Shown one piece after another: positions 4,913-63,982 of a stretch of 64,000 nucleotides of DNA (its first letter is position 1; each line of letters starts with the position of its first letter). A model generated the notes under the pieces. That model ran no database searches. It was not told the origin of the DNA and worked only from the letters and a program-made list of their open reading frames with translations. Source of the stretch: Planctomycetaceae bacterium. Lineage in GTDB: Bacteria > Planctomycetota > Planctomycetia > Planctomycetales > Planctomycetaceae. The position numbers were made by a program, and so were the translations under genes. The stretch covers positions 1 to 64,000 of the forward strand of contig JAKFUF010000057.1 of the NCBI GenBank assembly GCA_021732845.1. Direction: 5' to 3'.

Positions 4913-5572
4913 ATGATCGAAGTTGAAAACGTCGTCAAAACGTATCGTCGCGGGACGACGGATGTTCGGGCCTTGCGCGGCCTCGACTGCAAAATCGCGG
5001 GCCAGACACTGACGTTTATCGTTGGTCCCTCCGGCAGCGGCAAAAGCACTTTGCTCTATCTGCTGGGCTCGCTGGACCAGCCCAACAGTGGCGAGATCCG
5101 CGTGCAGGGGCGGACGCTTTCCAAGATGACGCGCAAGGAACGCGATGCCTTTCGCCGTCACGAGGTGGGGTTCATCTTTCAGAACTTCAACCTGCTGGGA
5201 AATCTCAACGCCATCGAGAACGTGCTGATCCCCTTCTTGCCGACGGGAGTCACCATCGACCAACGGAAAAACGCGCAGTTGATCTTGGAGCGTGTCGGCC
5301 TGGGCCAGCGGCTGGACCATCGCCCGCACCAGATGTCGGGCGGCGAACAGCAACGTGTCGCCATCGCCCGTGCGCTGATGAAGCGACCGCTGCTGGTGCT
5401 GGCCGATGAACCCACGGGGGAACTGGACAGCGAGAGCGGAGCGGAAGTCTACCGCTACCTGCGAGAACTGCGGGAAGAACATGGTTCAACCGTGGTCATT
5501 GTCACCCACGACCGGACCCACATCCTGCCGACGGACAGCTTGTTGTCGCTGCGGGATGGGAAGCTGGCTTGA
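4913..5572 (+). CDS. ABC transporter ATP-binding protein, LolD/MacB type
   Basis: This 219-residue ATPase carries every expected motif: Walker A GPSGSGKS (38-45), Q-loop FIFQN (Q90), signature [15 protein letters not shown] (from 141), Walker B LLVLADEP (160-167) and the switch histidine in VTHD (H199). The sequence is closest to the LolD/MacB/FtsE group that energises lipoprotein release, macrolide export or peptide-bond-type MacB permeases. No FtsX/MacB-like permease is adjacent. The upstream gene is the folate enzyme 67 bp away and the downstream gene is convergent hisG, so the membrane partner must be encoded elsewhere. Confidence 0.93.
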
Positions 5573-5643
5573 TGAAGCACCAGCAGGACAATGCCGCCTT
5601 TCGCGCCGCGCCGCCAAACTCTCGGCGCGGCCGCCGGCATGCC

Positions 5644-6513
5644 CTAATCGATGATCTTGTTGATCTGGTATTCCACGATTCCCCGCGCGCCGGCGGCCTT
5701 CAACTGGGGGACGATCACCCGCAGGAACGATTCGTCGACGATGGTGTTCACATCGACCCAGTCCGGATCGGACAGCGAGGAAACCGTCGGCTTCTGCAGT
5801 GCCGGCAGTTGTGCCAGCACGTCGTTCAATTCCGTGCGGCGGACATTCATCATCAGGCCGACTTTGCCTTCGGCGGCCAGGCAGGACTGGAGCATCAGCG
5901 CCAGGTTGTCGATTTTCGATTTCTTCCAGGGATCGGCGTAGGCCGCGTGGTTGGCGATGAACCGTGTCGTGCTCCGCAACACCTCGTCGATGATCCGCAG
6001 GTTGTTGGCCCGCAGCGAACTGCCGGTCTCCGTGACCTCAACGATCGCATCCGCCAGTTCCGGCGGCTTGACCTCCGTGGCTCCCCACGAGAACTCAATC
6101 TGAGCCTCGACGCCGTGCTTTGCCAGGTACGAGCGGGTCAGGCCCACCACTTCGGTGGCGATCCGTTTCCCCTGCAGATCCTTGACGGTCTTGATGGGAG
6201 AATCTTCCGGGACGCAGACGACCCACCGCACCGGGCGGCGGCTGACTTTGGAAAACATCAGCTCGCAGACTTCGTGAACGCTGGCATTGTTTTCCAGCAC
6301 CCAGTCATGCCCCGTGATCCCCGCATCCAGCACACCCTGCTCGACGTAGCGGGCCATTTCCTGGGCCCGGATCAAGAGGCAGGAAATCTCGGGATCGTCG
6401 ATTTCTGGGTAGTACGACCGCGAGGGAAACTTGATGTTGTAGCCGGCGCGCCGCAGCAGTTCGCCTGTGGATTCCTGGAGACTGCCCGCGGGGATGCCGA
6501 GTTTCAAAGACAT
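5644..6513 (-). CDS. hisG: ATP phosphoribosyltransferase (long form)
   Basis: HisG catalyses the first step of histidine biosynthesis, joining ATP and PRPP. The 289-residue product has the long-form length with a C-terminal ACT-like regulatory domain (ending [22 protein letters not shown], of which [14 protein letters not shown] is the typical tail). Other family signatures are [12 protein letters not shown] at the start, [10 protein letters not shown], and the PRPP-binding stretch [18 protein letters not shown]. The ATG at 6513 is chosen because the upstream extension only translates attttcgatt-type intergenic repeats. No other his genes are nearby, so hisG is detached from a his operon here. 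It is convergent with the ABC ATPase gene. Confidence 0.95.
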
Positions 6514-6651
6514 GACTGAGGATTTTCGATTTTCGATTGAGGATTTTCGATTGCGGTTCTGGCGGCCCGAAAAGACTTTCGAGCGCTCGCCAAGCCCCAA
6601 TTGAGACGGATTGTGCCCCAAAACACAATCGAAAATCCTAAATCGAAAATG
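6514..6651. repeat. Intergenic short repeats (attttcgatt words in both orientations)
   Basis: The gap between hisG and the DUF58 gene contains gattttcgattttcgattg words (6523-6552) and an inverted group aatcgaaaatcctaaatcga (6628-6647), which can pair into a hairpin. No gene is seen. The hairpin could terminate transcription of the DUF58 gene. Confidence 0.5.
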
Positions 6652-8070
6652 TCACTCATCGGCCATGAAGAAGTATTCGGCAAACTGGTCGGCCGCGATC
6701 ACCTGGAGCGGGGCGGCGGCGTGGAGGCCCGCGCCATTGGACGATTTGGCGGCGGGTGTCACCGCGCTGCCGCGCGTGCTGATCAGCACGCGACGGGTGG
6801 GGCCTTCGAGCCTCGATTCGAGGCTGTCGCACAGGTGATTGAGCCCCATCGCCGGGCCGGCCTCAACCAATCCCAGCAGTTCCAGCACGGGATCAATGGC
6901 CAGAGCCCCGGCCAGCCCCTGCCATTCCTGTTCCGTCCGGCCGCTGACGCCGAGCGACAGGCGGGATTCGCCCGCCTGCCGGCAATGCTCCAGACAGACG
7001 GTGGCGGCAAAGCTGACGGCCGTCTCCACCCGGGCCAGTTCCTGGGGCGTGGGCCGGTCGGGAAGGTACAGGTCGACAATAAGCTGCAGGTCCTGGTCAC
7101 GGTTCTGGTGAAACTCGCGGACCATCAATGTGTTGCGGCGGGCGGTCGTCCGCCAGTGGATGGCCCGCGGGTTGTCGCCCCGGCGGTACTCGCGCAACTG
7201 GTGAAATTCGTCGTCGAACGCCCCCTTCCGCGAGCGGGGCTGCGTCACCAGCTCATTGTTGAACGACGAGCTGTGGTGCCACAGCGTGGTGAGATGTCCG
7301 ACCTGGGGATACACGATCAGTTGCTGCACATCGCCCACATCGACGACGCGCTCCATCATCCCCATCGGGAACCGGCTGGAAACCTGCAGCGGCCCCAGTT
7401 CGTAGAGCCCCCGATACGCCAGCCGGAGCTGATAACTGCCCGTCCGCTGTGACTTCGGCGGCACGCGTGTGAACAGGATGGCCGGTTGCAGATGCTCGCG
7501 GGCACTGCGGAGCGAGTCATGGACTTCCATCATCCACGACGCGAACCAGCGCTTCCCGTTGTACAGCGTCAAATCCACGGAGAAGACATCGCCCGCCGAC
7601 GCCCGTTCGGGGACCACACGGTGGCACCGCGTCTTGCGGAGCATCGTCAGGGTGATGGAACCGTTCAGCACGAACGGCCCGGCCAGCAGGCCGAACACCA
7701 GCACCAGCATGTTCGCCTTGCCTAGGAGCGCCCCGAGGAACAGGACGATCATGATGCCGAGAAACACCGCCGCTTCGGCGGGCATGCGGACGTGATAGCC
7801 GGTCCAGCCATCCCGCGAAGAGCGGGAACGAACCTGGCCCACATCGTGGGCAATGGTCCACAGCCCCCACAGGATCAGCAGGCTCCCCAAGCCGGGATAG
7901 ATCGCCTTGGCCCACGGCCCGGCCCACAAGCTCGGCCGCTGGTTGTAAATGACAATCAACCCCGCGCCGACAACCATCAACACCAGCCCCCACCACGGAA
8001 ACGGCCGCGACCGCCGCAGCGTGGAGGACCGGGTGGAAACTTTGGAATTGGGGCGGGGCAGTTGGGACAT
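6652..8070 (-). CDS. DUF58 domain-containing protein
   Basis: The 472-residue protein has two pairs of hydrophobic segments in its first 160 residues, then a beta-rich region, then the DUF58 signature EFHQLREYRRGDNPRAIHW at about residue 300, followed by a vWA-like C-terminal part. DUF58 proteins are typically partners of MoxR-type AAA+ ATPases and of BatA/transglutaminase-like membrane proteins; none of these lies directly alongside here. The ATG at 8070 is preferred because an AGGAAG ribosome-binding-like sequence lies about 13 bases upstream. The cellular role of this family is not settled. Confidence 0.88.
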   Translation of the reverse strand: MSQLPRPNSKVSTRSSTLRRSRPFPWWGLVLMVVGAGLIVIYNQRPSLWAGPWAKAIYPGLGSLLILWGLWTIAHDVGQVRSRSSRDGWTGYHVRMPAEAAVFLGIMIVLFLGALLGKANMLVLVFGLLAGPFVLNGSITLTMLRKTRCHRVVPERASAGDVFSVDLTLYNGKRWFASWMMEVHDSLRSAREHLQPAILFTRVPPKSQRTGSYQLRLAYRGLYELGPLQVSSRFPMGMMERVVDVGDVQQLIVYPQVGHLTTLWHHSSSFNNELVTQPRSRKGAFDDEFHQLREYRRGDNPRAIHWRTTARRNTLMVREFHQNRDQDLQLIVDLYLPDRPTPQELARVETAVSFAATVCLEHCRQAGESRLSLGVSGRTEQEWQGLAGALAIDPVLELLGLVEAGPAMGLNHLCDSLESRLEGPTRRVLISTRGSAVTPAAKSSNGAGLHAAAPLQVIAADQFAEYFFMADE

Positions 8071-31177: not shown

Positions 31178-31204
31178 AAAGTTGCCGAGTCACTCCGTGA
31201 CTCG
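31178..31204. repeat. Palindromic repeat after the NtrC-type gene
   Basis: The palindrome cgagtcactccgtgactcg occupies 31186-31204 and is preceded by aaagttgc. It lies 6 bp beyond the stop codon of the leftward regulator gene, where it could form a terminator hairpin. The same unit occurs three times inside reading frames at the right edge of the window (63219, 63511, 63649). Confidence 0.75.
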
Positions 31205-31210
31205 ATCGCG

Positions 31211-32608
31211 TCAGCTTTGCAACTGCCGCTCGAACGAGATGCCGTACTTCTTCATCTTCTTGTACAGCGTCGTGCGATTGATCCCCAAGAGGTCGGCGGT
31301 TTCCTGGCGGTTCCAACCGTTGGATTCCAGGGCTTCCAGAATCAAAGTCTTTTCCGGGTTGGCGAGTGCGGCCTTGAGGCTGCCGCTCAGGCTGCGGGAC
31401 TGCATCGCCTCGGGGGTTGTGCCACGGCGGACGCACTCGGGCAGGTCTTCGACCCCGATGATCGGGCGTTTGGACAGCACGACGGAGCGTTCAACGATGT
31501 TGACCAGTTCGCGGACGTTGCCCGGCCAGTTGTAGCGCTGCAGCATCTGCACCGCCTGTTCGCTGAAGCCATGCACCGTCTTGTTCGACTGCTTGCGGAA
31601 CTCTTCGAGGTAGTGTTCCAGCAGCAGGGGGATGTCGCCCATCCGCTCCCGCAGGGCGGGTTGCTCCAGCATGATGACATTGATGCGGTAGTACAGATCC
31701 TGGCGGAAGGTGCCCTTGGCGACCGCGTCTTCCAGGTCGACGTTGGTGGCGAGAATCAGCCGGATGTCGACCTTGTGTGTTTTGTTGCCGCCCACCGGTT
31801 CGAACTCGCGGTCCTGCAGCACGCGCAGCAGCTTGACCTGCAGATTTGGCGAGGCGGTGGCGATTTCGTCGAGGAAGATCGTGCCCCCGTCGGCCTGCAG
31901 GAACTTTCCGATTTTGTCATGCACGGCGCCTGTAAAACTGCCGGCGACATGGCCGAACAGTTCGCTTTCGAGGAGTGAATCGGGAAGTGAGCCACAGGCC
32001 ATTTCGACGAACGGCTTTTGGCGGCGGCTGGACAACTGGTGAATCGAGCGGGCCGTCATCGTCTTGCCCGTGCCGCTTTCACCGAGGATCAAGACAGTCG
32101 TCCGGGTGTCGGCGACGCTCTCGATCAGGTCGAACATCTTCAGCATCTTGTAGTCGTGGCCGATGATGTTGCCCAGGCCGAAACGCTGGTCAAGCTGCCG
32201 CTTCAGGGTCCGGTTTTCGGCAATGATCTCGCGTTGTCCGAGTGCCCGCTGGATGCACAGCGACAAGTCATCGTCGATCAACGGCTTGGTCAAATAGTCA
32301 AACGCGCCCAGTCGGATCGCTTCGACGGCGTTTTCAATCGTCCCAAAGCCGGTGATCAGCACGACCGCCGTTTCCGGGGCCGCCGCCTTGATCGTTTCCA
32401 GCACATGGAACCCGTCGTCATCCTGCAAATTGACGTCGCACAGAACCACGTCAAACGGATACGTGGCTCCGCGGGAGATGGCCTCCCGTGCCGTCTGGCA
32501 GGTTTCGACGCGATGCCCGAAGCTGCGCAGAAAGTCTGCCATCGCTTCCAGGATATACTGATCGTCGTCAACGAGAAGCAGGTTGCCCGTGGTGAGCGTG
32601 GTATTCAT
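31211..32608 (-). CDS. Sigma-54-dependent response regulator, NtrC family
   Basis: The 465-residue protein has a receiver domain (D15/D16 acidic pair region, phosphoacceptor D58 in LCDVNL, K108), an AAA+ sigma-54 activator domain (Walker A GESGTGKT 176-183; GSFTGA 213-218 in place of GAFTGA; Walker [10 protein letters not shown] 231-239) and a Fis-type helix-turn-helix ([20 protein letters not shown]) at the C terminus. It activates transcription from -24/-12 promoters. No histidine kinase is adjacent. The ATG at 32608 is used; the upstream frame extension has no receiver-like sequence. Confidence 0.94.
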
Positions 32609-33208
32609 CGGAAATCTCGAGGCAGGCGAATCTGGGTGAGTAGCGAGAGTTTTCGTAGGACGGCAGCGTGTCCCTTTTCGACAACCCGGCGGAACGAGTT
32701 TGATGCCTGTTCCGCACAGGGAAGCCGGTGCGATTACGCAAACATAGGCCACAGTTGCCGCCGGTCAACATTTTGCGGCAACTCGCCGTTGATTTCCGGC
32801 AACTTTCGGTTTTGGGCGGAACGCTTCGACCACGTGGTATCCTGTCGCGGAGCTTCTTGATTCCTTGATGAAACAACCGCGCACAAAGGACATGAGGCGC
32901 ATGAAATGGGTTCGATACAAGTCCGCACACCAGGCTCGGCGCGAAGGCAGCCTTTCCACCGGGGGATCCTGGTCCCGGATGGGTGAAGTTCAGTCCCACC
33001 AGATCTGCGTCGCCAAGCGGTAAGAACGCGGCACGTCCAAGGTTCGGCTCAGGCGACATTTCCACCTATTCCGGTTGCTTGAAACCGGCCTTGGGAAATT
33101 CGCGGGCGGCCGGGCGAAATCCTGAAGCTGCGCCAAATCGTGTGCTAGGCTTCGACCGGGGCTGTTGCCCCCAGCATGACACATGGCGGTTTACGCGAGG
33201 ATCCAGGC
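32609..33208. other. 600-bp gap without a convincing gene; stacked short hairpins
   Basis: No conserved protein is seen. Upstream of the NtrC-type gene, gttgccg (32754-32760) can pair with either of two cggcaac copies (32776-32782 and 32797-32803), giving mutually exclusive hairpins. A 15-mer (tcgatacaagtccgc, 32912-32926) also occurs at 1037-1051 in the repeat block. The segment presumably holds the divergent promoters of the regulator and the glycine-rich protein. Confidence 0.5.
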
Positions 33209-40346: not shown

Positions 40347-42029
40347 TTACTCCCCCCACGCCGCCTTGGCAAACGCCTCCAAGTCATCGAAGTTCGACTG
40401 CCACGTCGTGTACATCACACCGGTGACGCGGTTGCCGTGGCTGGCTTTGAGCCACGCCTTGATGGCGGCGGGGTCGGAGTCGTAGTAGCCAGCGAGGACT
40501 TGGGAGTGACCGCGGTCGCCGAAGAACTTGGTGCTTTCGGCGGGCTTGCCGCTGTTCCAGTTGATGATGAGCGTGTCTTTGGTCAGCCCTTCCCAAGAGC
40601 CGGTCAGGTCGCCGTTGACCAGGTAGAACGGTCCTTTCTGGGCGTTGTGGTGCGGGTCGAACATGTCGCTCCAAATGGCAGTTTTTGCCTGAGGATTGAG
40701 TTCGTGGACCAGTTCCAGGCAGCGCCGCACGTTGTTCGCCAGCACCGCGCCCGCTGTTTCCTTGGCCCGCGTTTCGTCGGCGCTCCAGTTCGCCACCCGG
40801 ATCTCGTCGTGGCTCAAAAAGTACCGCTGGGGCTTCAAGAGCTTGTCGACGCGCTGCAACTGGTCACGGACGAGTTCAAACACCCGTGGATCGGTCAGTG
40901 AGGCCGGCACCTGTTCATCGTAGATGGTCACGGCGTGGTAAAAGCTGGCGTTGAGTTCGGCACCCTCCTTTACCCGTGTGCCGGGCAACAGCTTCAAAAC
41001 CGGTGGCTCGTGGTACACATCAAAGTGGCCGACTGAGCCACGGTTGGTGAGGACGGGATCGTGCAGTTCGGCAAAGTCTTTGCCTTCCACCAGAGGCTTC
41101 CCCTCGGCATCGGCAATGACCAGCGGGCATCCCGGGCGGCGGACCAGATTCACAAACGGGGCCTCTTCAATCTGCGCGTCATCCATCCAGAGCTGGCCCG
41201 CGCCAGCGTCCCACACACCGAGATAGAAGCCGACCTCGTCGGCCTCGAGGCTGTTGAACATGATGTGGTGCTGCGTCCAGTCCTGATCCCGTTTAACGCC
41301 GAGGTTGCTGTGCGACAGCGTGCGGCCTTTGGCACCGAGCGCGAACAGCCGCACGTCGCGGGCGGATTCGAAATTGGCCGTGCGGATCCACACCGAGGCG
41401 TGATACGCGGTCCACGGCTGGACCTTCAGCCGCTTCGAGACCCGGCGGTTTCCGCGGACACCCTTGGGGTTCTCAATCCGTAGTGAACTCTCGCCGCCAT
41501 GCTTGATGACGGTGTCGGCAAATGTTCCGGTACCCGGTTCATCCTGAAAGCCCCAGCCGGTGAACTGGTGCTCCTTGCGCCTTTCGAAGCCACCGGGAAT
41601 CGCTTCCGCCGAAAGTCTTGGGTGGGGCAGCGCCGTGTCCCCCTGCACTTTGAGCCGCATGTTCCGCACCGGCAGCCCTTCGGCCAGGTTGGGGTCGTGT
41701 GACAGCAGGCCTTCGCTGTAGCCGAAGGGAGCGACACAGGGGATGAGTTCGATTTTCAGTTCGTCGGCGAGGGCTTTGAACTGAGCCATGTTGCTGAAGT
41801 AGTGTTCTGGAACGCGGCCCAGAATGTTCAGCTTGTAGTCGGCCAGAACAATGCCGTTGTAGCCCGCTTTGGCAGCCCGGCGCAGCAGCGCTTCCGCCTT
41901 GGGGACGTTCTCCTTGACCTGAAAGTTATGCTGCAGGTAGAGCCACCGCTGCTCGAGTTCGGCAGCGCTCGCTGTACCGGCAAGCAAAACGAGAGACACG
42001 AGGGCGGCGCGAAGCAGAGGGACGTGCAT
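40347..42029 (-). CDS. Secreted GH20-like TIM-barrel protein with central carbohydrate-binding-like domain
   Basis: The 560-residue protein has a signal peptide (LLRAALVSLVLLAGTASA). Residues about 25-125 look like the first half of a TIM barrel (YNGIVLADYKLNILGRVP, then LKIELIPCVAPFGYS), interrupted by a roughly 150-residue jelly-roll-like insert (SLRIENPKG, then YHASVWIRTANFE and FYLGVWDAGAGQLWMDDAQI), and then the barrel resumes with RYFLSHDEIR, reminiscent of the GH20 Asp-Glu pair. Substrate unknown. The ATG at 42029 precedes the signal peptide; the upstream frame only reads through a repeat. Confidence 0.75.
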   Translation of the reverse strand: MHVPLLRAALVSLVLLAGTASAAELEQRWLYLQHNFQVKENVPKAEALLRRAAKAGYNGIVLADYKLNILGRVPEHYFSNMAQFKALADELKIELIPCVAPFGYSEGLLSHDPNLAEGLPVRNMRLKVQGDTALPHPRLSAEAIPGGFERRKEHQFTGWGFQDEPGTGTFADTVIKHGGESSLRIENPKGVRGNRRVSKRLKVQPWTAYHASVWIRTANFESARDVRLFALGAKGRTLSHSNLGVKRDQDWTQHHIMFNSLEADEVGFYLGVWDAGAGQLWMDDAQIEEAPFVNLVRRPGCPLVIADAEGKPLVEGKDFAELHDPVLTNRGSVGHFDVYHEPPVLKLLPGTRVKEGAELNASFYHAVTIYDEQVPASLTDPRVFELVRDQLQRVDKLLKPQRYFLSHDEIRVANWSADETRAKETAGAVLANNVRRCLELVHELNPQAKTAIWSDMFDPHHNAQKGPFYLVNGDLTGSWEGLTKDTLIINWNSGKPAESTKFFGDRGHSQVLAGYYDSDPAAIKAWLKASHGNRVTGVMYTTWQSNFDDLEAFAKAAWGE

Positions 42030-42132
42030 GATCGACAGACCGCCTTGCAGGCTTGGCAGGAACTGAACGGGCGCTGGGATTGGATCTGGCGAGATTCTAC
42101 CGACCCTTGAAGGACAGCACACGGTTCGAAGA

Positions 42133-42224
42133 ATCAGCCGGCGGCCGTTAGGCCCCGGTTCTGGCCTAACGAGCCTCCAGAGATTGTTGAGTTCGGAACC
42201 GGACGCGAATGCGTTCCGGCTGAT
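42133..42224. repeat. 92-bp palindromic intergenic element
   Basis: The left arm atcagccgg...ccggtt and right arm aaccgg...ccggctgat are inverted repeats of 28 bp with several mismatches in the middle, separated by about 36 bases. It lies in the divergent promoter region between the GH20-like gene and the discoidin-like gene. A second intact 92-bp copy is at 63341-63432 inside a reading frame, and its arms also occur within both MITE-like elements. Confidence 0.7.
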
Positions 42225-42341
42225 TTGTCGAAATTTGGCCAACCCAGAATTCAGAACTCTCCGCTTGAAGACATTTTGTCTACACGGTAATTTGGCCCAC
42301 GTTGGCAGCATTTCTCTTCGGTTCTGCAGCGGAGACAGCGC

Positions 42342-47117: not shown

Positions 47118-48764
47118 ATGATGAACAACCTGAGTTGGCTACGATTGGTCGCCGTGGCGTTCGCCGTCCTCGGTGGCCCTGGGCTGTGTCGTGCAGCAGA
47201 TCCCGCCAGAGACAGTGCTTCAACGGCGGTGGTTACGGCGCAGATTGATGCCATTTTTGAACAGGAATGGCAGGCGGCGAAGGTTTCGCCGCAGATGGCC
47301 GATGATGCGATGTTTTTGCGGCGAGCCACGCTGGACCTGACGGGGCTGATTCCCACGGTCGGCGAGGTGCGGGGCTACCTCAGTGAGCGAGGAACCCCGA
47401 TAGCGGATGAGGAAGGGGGCGCAAGCCACCCATCCGCGCCAGGGGTTCCGCAGCGAGCAGGACTTACCAGCGACTCCCGCCCGGACAAACGCGCGAAGCT
47501 CATTGCGGAACTCTTGCGGCGGCCGCGGCATGCGCGGCTGATGGCCGGCGTCTGGCGCGATGTGCTGTTGCCGCACAACACGCCGGAAACGGCAGCGGTG
47601 GCGTTTGAGAACTGGCTGCAGGGGCGGTTTCGCGACAATGTTTCCTACGACGCCCTGGTGCGAGAAATCTTGACAGCCCAGGGAACGAGCAATCAGTCGG
47701 TGCCGGTGGTGTTTTTCGCGTCGAACCACACCAAGCCGGAAGAGCTGGCGGCGAGTGCCTCGCAGGCGTTTCTCGGGTTGCAGGTCCGTTGTGCGCAGTG
47801 CCATGATCATCCGTTTACGCAGTGGAAGCAGGCGGATTTCTGGGGCTTTGCCGCCTTCTTTGCCCGCACCCAGGGGCCGTCGAATGTCGGCGAACTTGTC
47901 CCCGTGGCGGACCGCGCGGATGGGGAGGTGCGGCATCCAAAGACGCTGAAGGTGCTGCTGCCGAAGCCGATGGACGGGCCGGAGATGGCCGCAACCACGA
48001 GTGAGCCACGCCGCGCGGTGCTGGCCCGGTGGGTGACGGCGGGAGAGAACCCGTTTTTCGCCCGCGCCGCGGTGAACCGGGCGTGGTGGGTGCTCTTCGG
48101 CCGGGGCCTGGTGCAGCCGGTCGATGACCTCGGCCCGCACAACCCCAGCACGCACGAGGCGGTGCTGACCCTGCTGGCCAACGATTTCGTGCAGCACGAT
48201 TTCGACCTGCGGCGAACCTTGGAGATCATTGCCGGGACCAAAGCCTATCAAACGAGCAGCACGCCGCATCAGCCGGGGACGGCAGCGGACCCTGATGAGA
48301 ATTATGCCACGATGGCCGTCCGCAGTTTGTCGCCGCAGCAGGTGTACGACGCCCTGCTGCAGGCGGCGGGCGAGCGCGAATCGCTGGAGCGGCCCGGCCC
48401 CGAGGCCGTTGCCGAGCGGCGGGCGTTTCTGGCCCAGCTCGATGCACCCACCCGCCAGCCGACGGAGTATCAGGGCGGCATCCCGCAGGCACTGATGCTG
48501 CTGAACGGCCCCCTGGTCGCCCGCCTGACCAACCCAACGACAGGTGATTTTCTCGCCGCCCTGATCGACAGCCCGTTTCTTAAGGACGAACAGCGGGTTG
48601 AGACACTGTTCCTCGCCACGCTGTCACGTCTGCCCCGCCTTGAAGAGCGCGAACGGATGCAGAAGTTGCTGGCGTCAAAGCCGACGGCAGCCGCCCGCGC
48701 TCAGGCACTGGGCGACCTGCAGTGGGCACTGTTGAATTCGACGGAATTTGTGTTGAACCGGTAG
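47118..48764 (+). CDS. DUF1549/DUF1553 domain-containing protein
   Basis: The 548-residue protein has a signal peptide and the planctomycete DUF1549 domain (FLRRATLDLTGLIPTVGEV; LVREILTAQGTSNQ; VRCAQCHDHPFTQWKQADFW, quoted in part with the CAQCH haem-like site), followed by DUF1553 (RRAVLARWVTAGENPFFARA; VNRAWWVLFGRGLVQPVDD). About 24 residues (roughly 93-116) are inserted where the family normally runs straight into PDKRAKLI; the DNA there is a palindrome (see the separate entry). It is followed 70 bp later by a DUF1501 gene, the standard pairing. Biochemical role unknown. Confidence 0.92.
   Translation: MMNNLSWLRLVAVAFAVLGGPGLCRAADPARDSASTAVVTAQIDAIFEQEWQAAKVSPQMADDAMFLRRATLDLTGLIPTVGEVRGYLSERGTPIADEEGGASHPSAPGVPQRAGLTSDSRPDKRAKLIAELLRRPRHARLMAGVWRDVLLPHNTPETAAVAFENWLQGRFRDNVSYDALVREILTAQGTSNQSVPVVFFASNHTKPEELAASASQAFLGLQVRCAQCHDHPFTQWKQADFWGFAAFFARTQGPSNVGELVPVADRADGEVRHPKTLKVLLPKPMDGPEMAATTSEPRRAVLARWVTAGENPFFARAAVNRAWWVLFGRGLVQPVDDLGPHNPSTHEAVLTLLANDFVQHDFDLRRTLEIIAGTKAYQTSSTPHQPGTAADPDENYATMAVRSLSPQQVYDALLQAAGERESLERPGPEAVAERRAFLAQLDAPTRQPTEYQGGIPQALMLLNGPLVARLTNPTTGDFLAALIDSPFLKDEQRVETLFLATLSRLPRLEERERMQKLLASKPTAAARAQALGDLQWALLNSTEFVLNR
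47391..47449. repeat. 59-bp palindromic repeat inside the DUF1549 reading frame
   Basis: Nested stems ggaacccc/ggggttcc, gcggatg/catccgc and ggggc-gcaa-gcc form a hairpin with internal mismatches. It is translated in frame as part of an extra segment (IADEEGGASHPSAPGVP) not expected in DUF1549 proteins. Confidence 0.65.
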
Positions 48765-62147: not shown

Positions 62148-62346
62148 TTTGGGGATCCAGGCATGTAAAAAATCGAAGCGGGGATCAGTTTCAGATTGAC
62201 CTGTATGTCAGAACTGGCGGGCGATTGTCAACGCAACCGGGACACCTGTCGCGAATCCGCTCTCTGGCGCTCACTCCCGATCCGCCGGCGGTGTCCCGCA
62301 ATCACGCCAGGCCACCTGGCTCCAAAGAAAATAATATGTTGTGTCA

Positions 62347-62451: not shown

Positions 62452-63417
62452 GTGGACGGTTGCAATCAGGGTTCGGCGGCGGAAGGTGTGGTGACGGACG
62501 GTGTTTCCCTCGATCAGCGGGTGGCCGCGGGTCGCGGGCGGAAGGCGCGCAGCGACTGCAAGGTGAGTGACCTTGAGATCTATGTCGCGATCGTCACGCA
62601 CATGGGAATCATCAAATCCGTGGCTCTCGCGCTGGGGATCGTCCGGTCGACGCTGTACCGGCGGATTGAGCGGGCACCGCAGCTCAAGGCGTGCTTCGAT
62701 GCGGCGCGGGCTGTCATGGTTCACTACGCCTGGGAGCAGTTCGACGAAGCGGTGAAGGCGAAGGCCCGTTGGGCGATCATTTTTGGAGTGAGCCGCATGC
62801 ATGGGGTCCCGATGTCGCCTGCCGGGCCGAGCGCATCCGGGTCGGCGGCTGCGGCTGCGGCCGCGAAAAAGAAAGCCACGGAACTCGTGCCTCAACCTGA
62901 CGTGGCCGACGCTTGGACCCTGCGGCTCGTGCTGGGGGTTGAAAACGGCGAGCCGTGGGCGATCAAGTATTGTCTGAGCCACCTGGACCCGAACGGGCCG
63001 TGTGGCATCAACCAGGTTCGCGGGAGGAAGGATGACGCTGAAGAAGAGGACTCTGCGGATGAACTCGAAGAGGAGTTGGATGAGGAGCAACAAGAACTGC
63101 AAAAGGAGATCGATGCCGAAGATGCCCATGATTACGAGGTGGCGTCCGGACATGTCCAGCAGCAGCATGGGATATTGACGGGCAGGATCAAGTTGCGGCC
63201 GGTGCCGCCGATCGTTGCCGAGTCACTCCGTGACTCGAACTCGTCCGAACAACCGAACGCGAGTGCCTTACGGATGATGACCGAGGAAGCGCCGCCTCTC
63301 GTAAAAGCGGAGCCTCGGACCGACGCGCTATTCAATCCCCATCAGCCGGCGGACGTTAGTCCCCGGTTCAAACAGAACATCGACGACCACCGTGTCGACG
63401 AACCGGACGCTAACTAA
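62452..63417 (+). CDS. Helix-turn-helix protein with acidic tail and repeat-derived C terminus
   Basis: From GTG 62452 the product has 321 residues. Residues about 38-90 hold a helix-turn-helix (IIKSVALALGIVRSTLYRRI) followed by QLKACFDAARAVMVHYAWEQF, a layout seen in phage terminase small-subunit-like proteins; DAWTLRLVLGVENGEPWAIKY fits that too. A very acidic coiled coil follows (about 198-225). The last 65 residues come from repeats: VAESLRDSNSSEQPN from the cgagtcac palindrome unit, and HQPADVSPRF...DEPDAN from the 92-bp element, whose sequence supplies the stop codon. Possibly the front part of a longer gene continued by the next frame. Confidence 0.65.
   Translation: MDGCNQGSAAEGVVTDGVSLDQRVAAGRGRKARSDCKVSDLEIYVAIVTHMGIIKSVALALGIVRSTLYRRIERAPQLKACFDAARAVMVHYAWEQFDEAVKAKARWAIIFGVSRMHGVPMSPAGPSASGSAAAAAAAKKKATELVPQPDVADAWTLRLVLGVENGEPWAIKYCLSHLDPNGPCGINQVRGRKDDAEEEDSADELEEELDEEQQELQKEIDAEDAHDYEVASGHVQQQHGILTGRIKLRPVPPIVAESLRDSNSSEQPNASALRMMTEEAPPLVKAEPRTDALFNPHQPADVSPRFKQNIDDHRVDEPDAN
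63216..63302 (+). repeat. 87-bp coding direct repeat, unit 1 (unit 2 at 63506-63592)
   Basis: Both units start gttgccgagtcactccgtga, continue through gaacaaccg and cggatgatgaccgagg, and end at ccgcct. They are translated in their respective frames as VAESLRDSNS, EQP(N/D)A and RMMTE(E/A)APP. The palindrome is present in inverted orientation at 63649-63667. Confidence 0.75.
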
Positions 63418-63432
63418 GGCGTTCCGGCTGAT
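63341..63432. repeat. 92-bp palindromic element inside a reading frame
   Basis: It has the same arms (atcagccgg...ccggtt and aaccgg...ccggctgat) and the same total length as the copy at 42133-42224. The TAA stop of the helix-turn-helix gene (63415-63417) lies in the right arm, in a stretch with four extra bases compared with the related unit at 63540. Confidence 0.7.
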
Positions 63433-63982
63433 TTTGGAACGCGAGGCTGATCCACCGGCGGCACCGCCTGTCGAAGGGGCGAACCCGCCAACCGGAGCGT
63501 ACAAAGTTGCCGAGTCACTCCGTGACTCGAACTCTGCCGAACAACCGGACGCGAACGCCTTCCGGATGATGACCGAGGCAGCACCGCCTGTCGTGAACTC
63601 AGAGCTGGAGTCGAGCTTGGGGGCGTCAACGGGAGTGAGCCACGGGTTCGAGTCACGGAGTGACTCGGCAACTTTGCGACCCGCAGCGCGGGAACAATCT
63701 GACGCGCTTGTCGCCAGCCGTTCGCGTTCTTTTGCTGAGAAAAAGACGACTTTACGCCGTCCAGACGGCAGCATTGGCAGCGCGAAGCAGGCAGCGCCGC
63801 CTGTCGCATATGACGATTTCGACGACGACGCAGCCACCGACGAATTGTTCCGGCAGATCAAGGAAATGACGAGAAAGTTCCAAGCTCTCGAAGCGCCGCC
63901 TGTCCCCGCGGACGTTGCCGCATTCCGACTGCTGCTGGAACAGGCACGCATCCGCCTGCCGCCAGCGCCGCCTGTCACGTGA
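63392..63982 (+). CDS. Repeat-rich open frame, likely 3' continuation of the HTH gene
   Basis: This 196-residue frame overlaps the end of the previous gene in another frame and has no clear own start (a GTG inside the 92-bp repeat). It repeats the same peptide units: AFRLILEREADPPAAPPV, VAESLRDSNSAEQPDANAF with RMMTEAAPPV, and FESRSDSATL from the inverted palindrome. Proline motifs APPV recur five times (near 63466, 63585, 63796, 63896 and 63970). Removing the four extra bases near 63412 would join it to the upstream gene as one protein of about 510 residues. It may be a decayed or recently split gene. Confidence 0.45.
   Translation: MSTNRTLTKAFRLILEREADPPAAPPVEGANPPTGAYKVAESLRDSNSAEQPDANAFRMMTEAAPPVVNSELESSLGASTGVSHGFESRSDSATLRPAAREQSDALVASRSRSFAEKKTTLRRPDGSIGSAKQAAPPVAYDDFDDDAATDELFRQIKEMTRKFQALEAPPVPADVAAFRLLLEQARIRLPPAPPVT

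Follow-up and report, generated by a model that had tools for sequence, protein, structure and literature searches.

Short palindromes that are read as protein have already been described in bacterial genomes, both as intragenic REP elements, many of which lie within replication and repair genes (REP survey PMC3733652), and as the palindromic elements of Rickettsia (Ogata et al., in PMC3733652). REPs are also known to supply stop codons to the ORFs that flank them (PMC3733652, PMC3116915, PMC2817692). The Rickettsia elements pose the question of how palindromes gain in-frame entry to genes and whether their presence is tolerated or useful, a question that becomes testable in the bacterium considered here, a member of the Planctomycetaceae with a 9 Mb genome. 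Protein domains such as PSCyt2/PSD1 likewise point to a planctomycete. The ‘window’ that was analysed is a stretch of 64,000 nucleotides (positions 1 to 64,000 of contig JAKFUF010000057.1, assembly GCA_021732845.1), and the gene of concern lies close to its end. The reading favoured in what follows, to which a probability of about 75% is assigned, is that this gene, cut short by a frameshift, belongs to a family of about 58 genes confined to one species, and that its tail has been colonised by mobile palindromes. Intragenic REPs and Rickettsia-type elements are known; what is new is the scale, the restriction of a probably terminase-derived family to one species and, possibly, a 12-bp word (GCGCCSCCTGTC) that marks most of the joints between tail modules. 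An amplified family of such derivation and a joint word kept at the level of DNA have, to our knowledge, not been described before.

The truncated ORF occupies positions 62452 to 63417 (321 aa; all features are on the forward strand unless stated otherwise), opens with a GTG that aligns with the ATG of its paralogues, and belongs to an amplified family of small-terminase-like proteins with a helix-turn-helix (HTH) region. Its N-terminal region (62524 to 63093), conserved across the family, shows two W-A...F/Y-C-L segments and a weak similarity to HTH_8, from which DNA binding is predicted. In the assembled sequence the frame is lost at 63410 to 63417, where CTAACTAA is a tandem duplication of CTAA; the intact units of paralogues show just one CTAA, CTCA or CTAC at that point. 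The duplication makes an in-frame TAA stop (63415 to 63417), which sits in the right arm of a 92-bp palindromic element. Read from 63416 onward, the sequence gives KAFRLILERE..., identical in peptide to intact units of the paralogues, and the downstream frame encodes the peptide VAESLRDSNSAEQPDANAF. What is left of the gene continues in the original frame as a detached 3' ORF at 63392 to 63982 (196 aa in a mechanically made ORF list), which ends in ...LPPAPPVT. The initial annotation, which had placed a 4-bp difference near 63412 and a stop codon in the right arm of an intergenic element, was thus correct on both counts.

The closest paralogue (C38) has 98% amino-acid identity to the window gene in the N-terminal region and is colinear with it, except that precisely the 292 bp lying between two direct REP copies (63214 to 63505) are missing; the frame of C38 is unbroken to ...LPPAPPVM (443 aa, counted from stop to stop). 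A length of 292 bp is a multiple of three plus one, and without the 4-bp repeat it becomes 288 bp, or 96 codons. On the simplest reading, the window gene gained an extra REP-bounded module by recombination between REPs (loss of that module in C38 being less likely), and a short duplication in tandem, located in the module's palindrome arm, produced the stop. The gene is flanked by two copies of a further palindromic element of about 76-85 bp (GGGACACCTGTCGCG...GGTGTCCC), one at 62237 to 62312 and one past the window at 64142 to 64224 (in L076); this element recurs in the neighbourhood of other paralogues (L017, L004).

The main palindrome is a REP element. Its core, CGAGTCACTCCGTGACTCG, is present in about 350 copies in the genome (352 sites at two mismatches or fewer, against 2 for a reversed control, so that its occurrence is not a matter of chance), and among 40 genomes searched, including its own, each of the 39 relatives holds at most one site. 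Three copies lie in the gene, and their coordinates and peptides agree with the initial claim of a palindrome always read as protein: REP 1 (63214 to 63240, core 63219-63237) is read VAESLRDSN in the frame of ORF 62452-63417, REP 2 (63502 to 63532, core 63511-63529) is read VAESLRDSNS in that of ORF 63392-63982, and REP 3, inverted on the minus strand (63646 to 63676, core 63649-63667), is read FESRSDSATL in the latter frame. REPs 2 and 3 together form a perfect inverted repeat of 31 nt. A lone core elsewhere in the window (31186 to 31204) stands directly downstream of a minus-strand response-regulator gene (31211-32752). Four of the six reading frames of the REP contain no stops, so in-frame reading comes easily by chance, and the family copies that bear REPs are few (C31, C38, C150, C169 and the near-identical C8, C48 and C78), which implies few independent insertion events. 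The element is predicted to fold as a hairpin (z=-4.35). Among the 151 exact cores within the fetched stretches, the four bases one position upstream are GTAG in 69, GTTG in 64 and GTCG in 11 (that is, GTNG), and 52 are accompanied within 45 bp by a degenerate inverted partner, an arrangement seen in REPINs. Two identical RAYT-like ORFs of 236 aa (C58, C63), with an HVH motif, are set between inverted copies of the REP, and match the NCBIfam model REP_Tyr_transpos (NF047646) with E=3e-15, under the cut-off of that model (56 of 80 bits). It is presumably these REP-flanked, RAYT-like transposases by which the REPs are spread.

The tail of the gene is built of modules, consisting of in-frame REPs and of units homologous to the 92-bp palindrome, an element of intergenic type. 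The copy in the gene (63341 to 63432) is read QPADVSPRF...DEPDA(K)AFRLI and is predicted to fold, as single-stranded DNA, into a hairpin with z=-4.4; a non-coding copy lies in the window at 42133 to 42224, upstream of the inferred signal-peptide start of a minus-strand ORF (40347-42311). The left-arm pattern of the element has 76 matches genome-wide and none in the control. When the coding type (CAGCCGGCGGACGTTAGTCCCCGGTT...GAACCGGACGCTAAGGCGTTCCGGCTGATT, translated QPADVSPRF...DEPDAKAFRLI) is aligned with the non-coding type (CAGCCGGAGGCCGTTAGGCCCCGGTT...GGAACCGGACGCTAACGCGTTCCGGCTGATT), both arms and part of the centre are homologous. Three paralogues (C56, C138, C23) carry tandem arrays of 3 to 6 such units with a period of 171 or 174 bp, always in frame. 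The proposal that the 3' half had been assembled from intergenic repeats stands for the REP and 92-bp modules, but not for other modules, such as those at 63680-63790 and 63806-63892, which have no known intergenic counterpart. In the tail of another paralogue (C150; L018, ORF 5345-7315) a further in-frame, palindrome-like pair of peptides was seen, WREGEAPAEP ... ARGSAGASPSRH.

Most tail modules of the family start and end at the 12-bp word GCGCCSCCTGTC, read as APPV, of which the genome holds 176 copies against 19 in the control. In the window gene it is found as the variant GCGCCGCCTCTC (APPL) at 63289 to 63300, as the variant GCACCGCCTGTC (APPV) at 63461 to 63472 and 63581 to 63592, and as GCGCCGCCTGTC (APPV) at 63794 to 63805, 63893 to 63904 and 63965 to 63976, the last at the extreme C terminus. 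Outside the HTH family, the APPV/GCGCCSCCTGTC word bounds tandem repeats at L121 (3077-3257), L125 (2924-3320), L124 (3214-3532) and L132 (3294), one example being a 12-aa unit, SAASASRSAPPV.

A tblastn search with the window protein found about 58 paralogues, which are spread over more than 45 contigs of its own genome. By profile, the gene family was not found among 397 genomes from the class and 170 from the taxonomic family, where only distant single-domain matches were obtained, and the 69 pattern matches from an orthologue search of genome contigs included no relatives. Distant orthologues sharing the C-terminal repeats, which the initial annotation had named as evidence against itself, were thus sought in the genomes of the class and family and none was found; nor do the other species searched offer an empty insertion site for this family. 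Across the 17 genes of the largest subfamily, dN/dS averages 0.06 for the N-terminal region and 0.56 for the tail: the former is under strong purifying selection and functioning, whereas the latter is only loosely constrained. Three copies (C8, C48, C78; loci L020, L021, L019) are 99% identical over the stretch that opens with the start codon and closes with the final APPV, including a frame break, and differ in their flanks, which points to a recent copying event confined to coding sequence. A transposon origin of such copies was considered and set aside, as the flanks differ and neither terminal repeats nor target duplications were seen in the aligned ends; for the trio, gene conversion among older paralogues is the preferred explanation. 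Just upstream of many paralogues lie tandem repeats of about 431 bp with REP pairs 113-115 bp apart, at which the assembly breaks (L030, 229-1479, and the other subfamily-B loci L031, L032 and L047); these could be arrays for binding.

The family probably descended from the small subunit of a phage terminase, to judge from its relatives in sequence. The nearest of these in the genomes of the class and family are single-domain, phage small-terminase-like proteins; two profile relatives (L142, L151) match PHROG small terminases (both PHROG 309), and a large terminase adjoins distant relatives at the two loci checked (L144, L151). The connection runs through the profile of the paralogues, since the window protein itself gave weak HTH matches only and no match to a terminase family in PHROG. 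A scan of the fetched paralogue loci with a P-loop pattern, which would miss divergent members, found no terminase-like ATPase, and a comparison of the family profile with solved structures gave a match at chance level only.

Palindromes are also read as protein in other genes of this bacterium. One REP is set in frame within a uvrA-type gene that encodes a double UvrA of 2376 aa. The genome also holds at least 95 copies, often head-to-tail, of a third element ((S)ERGTPTADEEGGASHPSAPGVPQRAKLT, 87 bp), of which a search of 296 other genomes from the class gave none; the copy in the window (47378-47475) is read ERGTPIADEEGGASHPSAPGVPQRAGLTS, in frame, in a DUF1549/DUF1553 protein (gene 47118-48764), where it splits the Pfam match. 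Further in-frame copies (L163, L173, L176, L185) occur in an iron alcohol dehydrogenase, a ClpB-like ATPase, a GDPD/DUF885 protein and a DUF5682 protein, and the domain match falls in two stretches around the element in the PSCyt2, Fe-ADH and DUF5682 proteins. Rickettsia-like behaviour is therefore a property of the genome and not of this gene alone. The likeness to Rickettsia that was first noticed holds for the in-frame palindromes in unrelated genes; it overlooks that the main palindrome is a REP accompanied by RAYT-like transposases and that intragenic REPs are known (PMC3733652).

Several other explanations of the split, and of the relation between palindromes and peptides, deserve to be weighed. 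It is unlikely that the CTAA duplication arose through faulty assembly or sequencing of an intact gene, even though this is a draft genome of 262 contigs in which the family breaks contigs and several paralogues stand at contig ends, the contig of the window terminates in a shared repeat, and the closest paralogue is in frame. The stretch bears no sign of misassembly, a clean 4-bp tandem duplication is atypical of short-read error, and the CTAACTAA step recurs in one intergenic copy (L138). Moreover, breaks do occur in the family: the near-identical C8, C48 and C78 have a different one, soon after the REP, so that frame breaks in the tail arose at least twice. Translation of both frames, through programmed frameshifting or as two separate proteins, would account for the 196 open codons of the downstream frame and for its retention of the C-terminal modules of the family, but is very hard to credit: inspection by eye shows no slippery motif, the closest paralogue is read without a shift, and the start of the downstream ORF falls within the repeat, a sigma-70-like site not having been found on that strand. 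A truncated gene with a stranded 3' end is preferred to both.

That the peptide units came first, and that the intergenic palindromes are fragments of genes, has scarcely any probability. Coding and non-coding copies are homologous along the whole element, as this order of events would have it, but intergenic copies are more numerous than coding copies and occur in both orientations on the two strands, and the RAYT-like genes are flanked by REPs; furthermore, the relative G012 has 12 copies of the 92-bp-type element and no member of the gene family was found there, for which reason the element is taken as the older partner. A direction from intergenic palindrome into gene is thereby supported. 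As to the 12-bp word, it is possible, if doubtful, that it is a mere peptide motif under protein selection with codons homogenised by gene conversion, since it is read in the APPV frame throughout the family and near-identical stretches are common to paralogues. Against this, the rare codon CCT is used for the second proline in 31 of 35 modules with dissimilar flanks (less than 60% identical), as compared with 10% of the other prolines of the tail; information, at about 1-2 bits over the twelve positions, falls immediately beyond them to about 0.2 (134 contexts); and the word also borders repeats in unrelated ORFs (at C2, C70, C67 and C51). The word is thus conserved at the level of DNA, and shared descent of the modules remains a partial explanation. 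The identity of C8, C48 and C78, ending at the last APPV, fits recombination between conserved anchors, with a recombinase site as a candidate only. An active recombination site that shuffles coding modules among the roughly 58 paralogues and some unrelated genes is an improbable extension of this; if true, GCGCCSCCTGTC would mark a cassette-like system, fed by mobile palindromes, that diversifies tails on a conserved DNA-binding domain.

The favoured account of truncation and colonisation can then be put as a sequence of events. A phage terminase small subunit would have given rise to the species-restricted family, in which selection keeps the putative DNA-binding region and leaves the tail as a tolerant zone. 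Into that zone short mobile palindromes (GTAG-type REPs and the MITE-like 92-bp element) would have entered in frame and multiplied as modules, to be gained, lost and swapped among paralogues by recombination between repeated REPs and at the 12-bp word. In the window copy, the 288-bp module and the 4-bp CTAA duplication in its palindrome arm would have shifted the frame, so that the product is probably the 321-aa protein and the 3' ORF a stranded remainder. If so, one genome displays selfish palindromes becoming protein in several settings (between genes, as tandem coding units in a tolerant family, and in conserved genes), with frame-broken and unbroken copies visible side by side.

Each part of this system resembles something described and departs from it. 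Like phage terminase small subunits (PHROG 309, 4044), the profile relatives in the class have a single domain and match these PHROGs or adjoin large terminases; unlike them, the family here comprises about 58 stand-alone genes that carry a second W-A...Y-C-L segment and long tails of repeats, and no terminase-like ATPase was seen beside the paralogues. The variation between paralogues in the copy number of the 171/174-bp unit recalls intragenic tandem repeats and minisatellites, whereas a single 12-bp joint word common to unrelated modules does not. With GTAG-type REPs and REPINs and their RAYTs (PMC3733652, PMC3116915, PMC2817692) the palindrome shares its hairpin core, GTAG-like tag, hundreds of copies, inverted pairs and flanked RAYT-like genes, but its tag is GTNG, with GTTG about as frequent as GTAG, and it lies inside the tandem modules of a large gene family. 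Finally, palindromes are read as peptide in unrelated conserved genes here as in Rickettsia (Ogata et al., as cited in PMC3733652), the 87-bp element in particular behaving alike; the sequences presumably differ, and the likeness is one of behaviour, with no claim of membership in the same family. In contrast to the Rickettsia elements, however, the 87-bp element has also been amplified head-to-tail in frame, and it has done so in a 9 Mb genome rather than in a reduced, intracellular one.
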